Under the pieces are notes generated by a model, which saw only the letters and a list, made by a program, of their open reading frames with translations, was not told where the DNA came from and ran no database searches. The translations under genes and the position numbers were made by a program. Positions 10,657-12,809 of a stretch of 64,000 nucleotides of DNA are shown piece by piece (positions within the stretch are counted from its first letter, which is position 1; the number at the start of each line of letters is the position of its first letter). This DNA is from Halapricum desulfuricans. GTDB lineage: Archaea; Halobacteriota; Halobacteria; Halobacteriales; Haloarculaceae. The DNA lies in the NCBI RefSeq assembly GCF_017094525.1, contig NZ_CP064788.1:1039030-1103029 (forward strand). The letters are read 5' to 3'.

Positions 10657-12681
10657 ATGATCCTTTCGGACGCGGACATTCTGCGACGCCTGGAGGAGGG
10701 GGATCTGGTGATCGAACCGCTCGACGATCCGGACATCCAGATCCAGCCCGCCAGCGTCGATCTCCGCCTGGGACGGGAGTTCCTGGAGTTCCAGCGAACG
10801 AACATCCCCAGCATTCACCCGAACAGCGAGCAGGAAGTCGAGGAGTACGTCGAGGAAACTGTCGTCGAGGAGAGTGAAGAGTTCATCCTCCATCCCGGCG
10901 ATTTCGTGCTCGGCACGACACACGAGCGCGTCGAGATTCCGGACGATTTGATCGCCCACGTCGAGGGGCGGTCGTCGCTGGGCCGGCTGGCGATCGTGGT
11001 CCACGCTTCACTCCCGTACGACGAGGAAGTGTTCCTGTGGACGCCAGCGGATGGATTCGGGTTTTACGAGATCGGTGACATCGTCGAAAACGAGCGCCCA
11101 GCGCGAGCTGTGGCATTCGATCCGCAGACACTACGGGTTAGTACGCACCGTGTTACCGATTACATTACGAACCCAACACAACGGATCTACCGAGTGACAC
11201 TCGACTCGGGACGACAGATTCACGTCACGAAAGATCACAACCTGTTCACACTCGATAGAGACGGTGGCGTCACCCGGATCCCCAGTGAGGACGCTGAGGG
11301 AACGCAGGTCATGGTCCCGAAGCAACTCCCTGGATCGCCGACCGAGCATCGTTCGATCGACGTTCTCGATCACGTTGAGCCGACGGAAACGACGTTATAT
11401 GCCACAGACGGGTTCGGATTTGTCGATTCCGCGGGAATGGCACAGGGTTCGGAACGACATTACGATGCCAACGGAAGCGCGCCGATGGAAGCGGTACCGA
11501 AGATCACAATGCCAGACGATGTCGAAGTCGCGTTCCGACAGAGCGACTATCGTCTCCCGCGTGAACTCCCGTTGACCCGCGAATTCGGTTGGATGCTCGG
11601 GTTCTATATCGCAGAAGGGTCGGCTCGACGAAAGCAAATTCAGGTAGCAAACACCGAACGCCAGTATCTAAACCGATTCAGGGAGTTCTTCGCACAGTAC
11701 GACGCGTCGATCTCGATTCGGCAAACGGATGATCTCACTCGACTCACTGTCTGTTCGGCGCTCTGGTCTGCGGTTGTTCGTAGCCTCGCAGGGGCTGGCA
11801 GCGAGAAAACGATCCCCGAGTCAGCATTTGGTTGGCCCCGTGACACCCTCGAAGGGCTGCTTGAAGGGTTGCTCGATGGAGATGGGTGCCGTCGCGACGA
11901 GCGTGATACGTTCTACACTGCTAACGAGGAGCTGGCGAACAAGGTCATGTATCTCGCGGCTCGCCTTGGGAGGGGTGGCTCTCTCTACAGCAGGGAACGG
12001 AAACAATATATCGAGATAAGCGATGTCGAATGGGAGGGGGAAATGTGGAGCGTCGACGTGAGTGGTGAACGGCACAAGCGAGGTCAGTATGTACCCGTTC
12101 CGAGTCGCTATCTACGCGAACTCCGGAAGCGGGCTGGTCTCACGATGGACGAAGCGGCAGAGCTGATGGGTTATTCGTCGAAGTCCAGTATTTCCAACGT
12201 CGAGAACGAGGAGTACGATACCATCAAGCGCGATACGCTCCGTCGATTCTGTGACGCGTACAGTGGAACTGGCGTCGAGACGACGCGATTGGATCAGATA
12301 CTCGATGGTGGTGTTCGGTTCGAGGAAGTCGTATCCGTAGAAGAGACAGAACGTGTCGAACCGACATATGACCTCGAGGTCCAGCCCAACGGCGAGACTA
12401 TCGAGAACTTCCTTGGCGGGCGTGGCGGCGTATTCCTCTCGAACACAGCCGGACTCTGCGACCCGGGATACAACGGCCAGATAACCCTCGAGCTGTCAAA
12501 TCTCGGGACCGCACCGGTCGCACTCTCGCCCGGGATGCGGATCTCGCAGCTGACGTTCACCGAGCTAAAATCGCCGGCCGAGCGACCATATGGCGAGGAA
12601 CGCGGGTCGAAATATCAGGATCAGGAAGGGCCACAGGCGTCGAAGATACAGGGCGATCGGGAGTTCGGAGGCGACCAATGA
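10657..12681 (+). CDS. dcd: dCTP deaminase interrupted by an intein
   Basis: 674-residue precursor. Residues 1-117 and 597-674 join to a 195-residue dCTP deaminase, the usual haloarchaeal length. It makes dUTP from dCTP for dTMP synthesis. N-extein features are [17 protein letters not shown] and [18 protein letters not shown]-extein features are [20 protein letters not shown], carrying the conserved catalytic-loop glutamate (ITLEL), and [20 protein letters not shown]. The intein sits between VVHA and TAG, inside the active-site loop, so splicing is required for activity. The 3' end of the gene is the source of a 63-bp tandem duplication. Leaderless start is likely. Confidence 0.93.
11008..12444 (+). 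other. Intein with LAGLIDADG endonuclease and an HTH domain (Dcd precursor residues 118-596)
   Basis: 479 residues. First residue is Ser (SLPYDEEV). Splicing block B is visible as [17 protein letters not shown] (T-x-x-H). Two LAGLIDADG-like motifs are visible: [13 protein letters not shown] and [13 protein letters not shown]. Between the endonuclease and the C-terminal splicing block there is a Cro/C1-type helix-turn-helix ([20 protein letters not shown] ... SISNVENE, about residues 484-535 of the precursor). Block F/G reads [10 protein letters not shown] ... GGVFLSN followed by Thr+1. The residue before the terminal Asn is Ser, where His is usual. Both endonuclease motifs keep an acidic residue, so nuclease activity is plausible. 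Confidence 0.9.
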
Positions 12682-12809
12682 GCCGAGTCTCGTCTCGCGG
12701 AGATGTCGCCGAGAAACGACGTGGAGTTCGGAGGCGACCAATGAGCCGAGTCTCGTCTCGCGGAGATGTCGCCGAGAAACGACGTGGAGTTCGGAGGCGA
12801 CCAATGAGC
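12661..12809. repeat. 63-bp tandem repeat, 2.4 copies, derived from the dcd 3' end
   Basis: Copies begin at 12661, 12724 and 12787 (partial, to 12809). The two full copies are identical. Each begins with the last codons of dcd (GAGTTCGGAGGCGACCAATG), including its TGA stop, and continues through the trailing sequence. Only the first copy terminates dcd; the others lie in the gap before the thiR-like gene. The pattern fits replication slippage. Confidence 0.9.

Follow-up and report, generated by a model that had tools for sequence, protein, structure and literature searches.

Introduction

Accessory domains with a helix-turn-helix (HTH)-like fold have been reported in the inteins TliVMA and PI-TkoII, and the purpose of accessory domains in a subset of intein endonucleases has been called elusive (PMC8966425). 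When the HTH domain of TliVMA was deleted, cutting of the homing site was kept, binding was reduced, and cutting at an alternative site was gone, and the isolated domain seemed to add no affinity (PMC8966425). Inteins are also on record in haloarchaeal dCTP deaminases, as the initial annotation of the locus described here had stated; Soucy et al. reported in 2014 a deaminase allele, named dtd, in an extein new to inteins, present in six Halobacteria and monophyletic (PMC4071816). The passages of that paper concerning the dtd allele make no mention of an HTH domain, of histidine loss in blocks F and G, or of decay, and they do not print the insertion site.

Here, we describe an intein in the dCTP deaminase gene (dcd) of Halapricum desulfuricans, located within a 64,000-nucleotide stretch of DNA that was analyzed as a whole (the window). 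It is almost certainly the published dtd allele, an identity inferred from host gene and group, i.e., an intein in a halobacterial dCTP deaminase (Dcd) with relatives in named Halobacteria. Novelty was rejected for a dcd intein in Halobacteria, published in 2014 (PMC4071816), and for an HTH within an intein, with TliVMA and PI-TkoII as precedents (PMC8966425); HTH-like stretches recognized by eye in the GyrB and AtpA inteins of the same genome also count against the latter. The window intein is genuine and probably active; its allele is already known, and so is its type of accessory domain. We found no description of the dcd-intein HTH or of HTH decay in the open-access literature searched. 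What this analysis adds is comparative evidence linking the recognition helix of the HTH to endonuclease function, together with a C-terminal splice junction without either of the usual histidines, constant across all complete dcd inteins sampled.

Architecture of the dcd precursor and its intein

A single open frame at window positions 10657 to 12681 of the forward strand encodes a 674-residue intein-split dCTP deaminase precursor (Table 1), with an NCBIfam dCTP_deam match of 218.7 bits and a Pfam DCD match at residues 2 to 117. Frame and profiles bear out the initial annotation, which had placed the intein at residues 118 to 596, splitting the deaminase at VVHA/TAG, and had expected a spliced product of about 21 kDa; the computed spliced Dcd has 195 residues and 21.6 kDa, and the intein has 479 residues and 54.1 kDa. 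The ITLEL motif of Dcd presumably holds a catalytic residue.

Within the intein, Pfam profiles matched above their cutoffs: Intein_splicing at residues 138 to 587 with 51.8 bits (cutoff, 35.8), LAGLIDADG_3 with 43.8 bits (cutoff, 22.5), HTH_31 at residues 484 to 544 with 46.4 bits (cutoff, 27; E value, 5e-12), and HTH_3 with 31.1 bits (cutoff, 23). The NCBIfam profile intein_Nterm scored 30.4 bits, exceeding its cutoff of 24.5, and intein_Cterm scored 15.0 bits, slightly short of its cutoff of 15.6, which fits the atypical C-terminal end described below. The domain order is endonuclease, HTH, and then the C-terminal splicing half; the two LAGLIDADG motifs and the separate Cro/C1-type HTH near residues 484 to 535 that had been recognized at the outset are both present, the motifs with their catalytic acids kept. 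AlphaFold modeled the endonuclease and the HTH with confidence, the latter as five helices at residues 483 to 549, but the exteins and the intein end with low confidence; in the model of the intein, residues 452 to 479 fell below pLDDT 50. Altogether, the sequence suggests that the dcd insert is probably a full-size mobile class 1 intein with a probably active endonuclease.

Table 1. Features of the intein-split dcd gene, with positions in the window
Feature	Position	Strand	Evidence
dcd N-extein, residues 1-117	10657..11007	+	Frame, domain bounds, Pfam
Intein, residues 118-596 (Ser1 ... Ser-Asn)	11008..12444	+	Domains, Pfam/NCBIfam, precise empty alleles among relatives
Hint-N splicing half (our bounds: residues 118-225; Ser118, Thr191, His194)	11008..11331	+	Pfam, alignment
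LAGLIDADG homing endonuclease domain (our bounds: residues 301-460)	11557..12036	+	Pfam, AlphaFold, fold match, dN/dS
LAGLIDADG motif 1, LGFYIAEGS, residues 314-322, acid Glu320	11596..11622	+	
LAGLIDADG motif 2, LEGLLDGDG, residues 402-410, acid Asp407	11860..11886	+	
Cro/C1-type HTH accessory domain, residues 484-544	12106..12288	+	Pfam, AlphaFold, fold match
Asn514, HTH recognition helix	12196..12198	+	Alignment of 48 dcd inteins
Hint-C blocks F and G, residues 568-596; Glu583 and Ser595 replace the usual histidines	12358..12444	+	Alignment
dcd C-extein and stop	12445..12681	+	Frame, domain bounds, Pfam

At the end of the gene, a perfect tandem repeat of 150 bp (63-bp unit, 2.4 copies) occupies positions 12660 to 12809, covering the final dcd codons, the stop codon, and part of the gap to the following gene. 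The exact 63-bp unit was found at four loci of the same genome and nowhere else among 195 loci, many of which end short of this stretch.

Splice junctions without helper histidines

The window copy has the class 1 intein residues Ser118, Thr191/His194, Asn596, and Thr+1, and its C-terminal junction reads FLSN/TAG, i.e., an SN-Thr end with serine in place of the penultimate histidine, as first noted. This end had been considered as a possible distinguishing mark, but all 48 complete dcd inteins in the collection carried Ser1 and a terminal SN. The extraction patterns demanded Ser plus SN or N and left unmatched only the incomplete rows L023, L024, and L191; with a looser pattern, SN was present in every dcd intein row. 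L023 (G105:C15) has one internal TGA, and its two parts lie in different frames, through either a sequencing error or breakage of the gene.

Thr191, His194 (His B:10), and Asp572 (Asp F:4) were invariant in 35 of 35 dcd inteins. The histidines that help asparagine cyclization were absent from all 48, position G:6 being Ser595 and position F:13 being Glu583, the latter assigned from the position preceding Asn-Phe (IENF); the block F loss is additional to the penultimate serine. Across most of the surroundings of Asn596, Ser595, and Glu583, both AlphaFold models were below pLDDT 50. According to a review, inteins without the G:6 histidine exist, and class 2 inteins carry serine at G:6 (PMC4031507); mycobacteriophage inteins have Gly, Lys, or Ser at this position, and a block F histidine is able to substitute (PMC5050341). 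The G:6 and F:13 histidines are usual in class 1 inteins and do not define them. Among Pfam-matched intein loci in the family, the best 30 matches all end in HN, in a sample that favors canonical inteins. The dcd inteins, without both helper histidines of the final intein-release step, are a clean set in which to ask what substitutes for them.

The Top6B intein of the same genome (L065, G000:C1 near 1477249), which ends in ...DENFVVVNEGALSVKN/S, apparently lacks the block F and penultimate histidines, as judged by eye.

Distribution and probable mobility of the dcd intein

A search with the full precursor found matches in 141 of the 146 genomes searched from its family. At least 20 of the 146 have intein sequence, which in 2 is broken or truncated at a contig edge, and the other 121 matching genomes were taken as extein only, among the matches listed. 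Elsewhere, intein sequence was present in 14/170, 5/125, 5/26, 2/2, 2/9, and 1/1 genomes of other families. Scanning named genomes with a pattern found 34 loci; Halobacteria account for 32, with hosts that include Halorhabdus salina, Haloarchaeobius, Halovenus, Natronococcus, Halonotius, Halorubrum, Halobacterium, Halegenticoccus, and Halorutilus; the remaining two were weak matches (21 to 24%) in Micrarchaeota.

Intein-free alleles from the family had the precise VVHA/TAG join in 10 of 10 that were read, and the join pattern H-x/T-A fitted 50 of 50. On an extein tree of the family only, with 66 rows (16 of the 20 intein positives and 50 negatives), intein presence changed 14 times, compared to a mean of 14.5 and a minimum of 11 in 200 label shuffles; scattered presence of this kind is what gain and loss through homing leave behind. 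Intein and extein distances were correlated (Mantel r of 0.62; 0 of 2,000 permutations as high; n = 32), suggesting that transfer favors close relatives or that inheritance is partly vertical.

A viral or plasmid vehicle was rejected, as none of the 65 phage and 50 plasmid records with a match, of which 30 and 20 were listed, had a match region spanning 80% of the query, and scanning viral contigs yielded a single relative, with 26% identity over residues 26 to 152. At positions 1492 to 2546 of Halorubrum virus VOLN27B (L197), an annotated free-standing LAGLIDADG endonuclease gene is followed immediately by a dcd gene that lacks the intein.

Selection on the endonuclease and decay of the HTH domain

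Both catalytic acids, Glu320 and Asp407, are present in the window intein, whose endonuclease alters 0 of 40 positions conserved among other live inteins, or 1 of 42 once close relatives are excluded. Against five relatives, dN/dS of the endonuclease was 0.08 to 0.16, dS exceeding 1.5 in three of the comparisons; for the HTH, the two closest relatives gave 0.10 and 0.37, and the remaining three gave no estimate. These values show purifying selection on the endonuclease, which is probably active; taken together with scattered presence and exact empty alleles, it points to a mobile and probably active intein.

We classed dcd inteins as endonuclease dead if a catalytic LAGLIDADG acid was lost and as live if both acids were kept. 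In a first set, 4 of 35 were dead, and changes were counted at positions with 95% or higher conservation among live rows, with close relatives excluded for live rows. Altered positions in dead versus live rows were 36/160 versus 48/1,297 in the endonuclease and 12/72 versus 27/593 in the HTH, while the two Hint halves were not raised (3/196 versus 44/1,561 and 1/88 versus 7/680). Enlarging the set with other families gave 48 complete dcd inteins, 7 dead and 41 live, and conserved-site changes, again dead versus live, were 114/287 versus 44/1,514 in the endonuclease, 44/161 versus 24/713 in the HTH, and 1/154 versus 3/902 in Hint-C. Hint-N was also raised in dead rows (23/385 versus 42/2,043), chiefly through L192 and L193 (8/55 each). 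In these two inteins, endonuclease and HTH are strongly decayed and the splicing residues are intact; by this pattern, they are at a late stage of the homing cycle.

One residue of the HTH followed the state of the endonuclease throughout. Asn514, in the third or recognition helix, was Asn in all 41 live inteins, whereas the 7 dead ones carry Ala, Lys, Ser, or His, and its loss exactly in dead inteins ties the HTH to homing. Asn514 would correspond to Gln33 of the 434 repressor, a residue that contacts bases. Of the 23 conserved HTH positions, 10 were unaltered in all seven dead inteins, including Ser510 in the same helix as Asn514, and the fraction of HTH positions altered per row overlapped between dead (0.13 to 0.48) and live (up to 0.21) inteins. 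Plain p-distances (4 dead and 31 live rows) were rejected as a separator, since three of the four dead rows had an HTH/Hint ratio inside the live range. On a tree of the splicing domains, the seven dead inteins represent approximately four events, with two well-supported pairs, a number with which a sign test is unable to reach 0.05.

The joint decay argues well, though not conclusively, for an HTH that belongs to the homing machinery, where its role would probably be target binding. It lends support to the earlier suggestion that the HTH may aid target recognition or endonuclease control, in that service to the endonuclease is plausible. The HTH as a mark of this copy did not hold, with HTH_31 matching 30 of 30 dcd inteins scanned (an overlapping set); the idea that either the HTH or the SN end is peculiar to the window copy was rejected, both being shared within the dcd inteins sampled, which for this sample is the outcome named at the outset as refuting it.

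A proposed role for the HTH in homing

We consider it likely that this is a mobile dcd intein whose HTH serves as an accessory DNA-binding arm for homing. The precursor would self-splice, with Ser118 as the nucleophile, Thr+1 as the acceptor, and cyclization of Asn596, to give the 195-residue dCTP deaminase. The released intein would act as a LAGLIDADG endonuclease on intein-free dcd alleles, with the HTH, placed between endonuclease and C-terminal splicing half, as an accessory DNA-binding arm in cutting; the cut alleles would then be converted through repair. Counting against this role are the TliVMA deletion, after which the homing site was still cut (PMC8966425), the small number of independent dead inteins, the overlap in HTH alteration between dead and live rows, and the raised Hint-N changes in dead rows. 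A narrower proposal, put forward tentatively and with somewhat less than even confidence, is that the HTH is a fixed target-reading arm, in which Asn514 may contact the dcd site, be selected only while the endonuclease cuts, and decay after. If true, such an HTH would have a homing role opposite to the published promiscuity idea for accessory HTH domains.

That published idea, the TliVMA spread model, would have the HTH lower specificity and permit alternative cut sites rather than secure the dcd site. We regard this as unlikely for the dcd intein, even with deletion and grafting experiments behind it in TliVMA (PMC8966425) and an identical domain order in the two inteins: the recognition helix is strongly conserved, with Asn514 kept in every live intein at one site, whereas drift predicts diversity. 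The objection is weak, as conservation might equally preserve a fixed alternative site. Much less probable is a regulatory role, in which the excised intein would repress its own gene or dcd. The Cro/C1 fold is typical for autoregulators, and the 150-bp tandem repeat lies at the dcd end, but Asn514 is lost together with endonuclease catalysis while dcd and the splicing residues persist, and the exact repeat unit, within the search given above, is confined to its four loci in the same genome. Least probable is a passive scaffold required for Hint folding or splicing, which would suit the location of the HTH between endonuclease and Hint-C and the 10 positions retained even in every dead intein, but other HTH positions, chiefly Asn514, vary where splicing residues stay, and HTH-deleted TliVMA kept its HINT and HEN folds (PMC8966425).

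With 41 endonuclease-intact and 7 endonuclease-dead inteins in a single gene, all with splicing residues kept, the dcd family is a natural experiment that lets the role of an accessory domain be probed at a single residue, and an accessory DNA-binding arm for homing is the role we favor.

Comparison with known inteins

In fold searches, TliVMA (7qss; Z of 19.3, 333 residues aligned, rmsd of 6.7), a second TliVMA entry (7qsu; Z of 19.3, 249 aligned), and PI-TkoII (2cw7; Z of 18.5, 343 aligned) were tied as the nearest folds to the dcd intein. Because 7qsu is a truncated TliVMA construct and matches equally strongly, the HTH is not the driver of the TliVMA fold match. The HTH region matched a lambda-repressor-like protein (28tn; Z of 9.3) and a SinR-DNA complex (3zkc; Z of 8.4), values in a range commonplace for helical domains, and the endonuclease fold is I-DmoI-like (1b24; Z of 15.9).

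Within the same genome, the AtpA intein (L002, G000:C1:2439857-2441326), which has an HTH-like stretch by eye, is the sole other match aligning over nearly the whole dcd intein (25%). The GyrB intein (L067, G000:C1 near 2505649) also has an HTH-like stretch by eye, located between Hint-N and LAGLIDADG; it precedes the endonuclease, whereas the dcd HTH follows it. Among the closest non-dcd inteins (26 to 27%) are those of haloarchaeal RNA polymerase A'' (L062 and L064; host judged by eye and backed by a PRK14898 match), whose alignments extend over intein residues 57 to 459 and 59 to 448, covering the HTH position; they differ from the dcd intein in host, and both end in HN. The dCTP deaminase intein of cyanophage CL131 shares the host enzyme and splices in Escherichia coli, but it has an HNH-type endonuclease and belongs to a cyanobacterial phage (PMC6293099). 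CL131 was not among the best 30 of 65 matching phage records.

PI-TkoII (also PI-PkoII), the best PDB profile match, has an HTH-like accessory domain like the dcd intein and differs from it in its DNA polymerase host and an extra domain IV (PMC8966425). In TliVMA (VMA-b site), as in the dcd intein, the HTH links the endonuclease to the C-terminal HINT; unlike the dcd intein, TliVMA resides in a V-type ATPase subunit, with 19% identity between the two, and its HTH enables an alternative cut site (PMC8966425).
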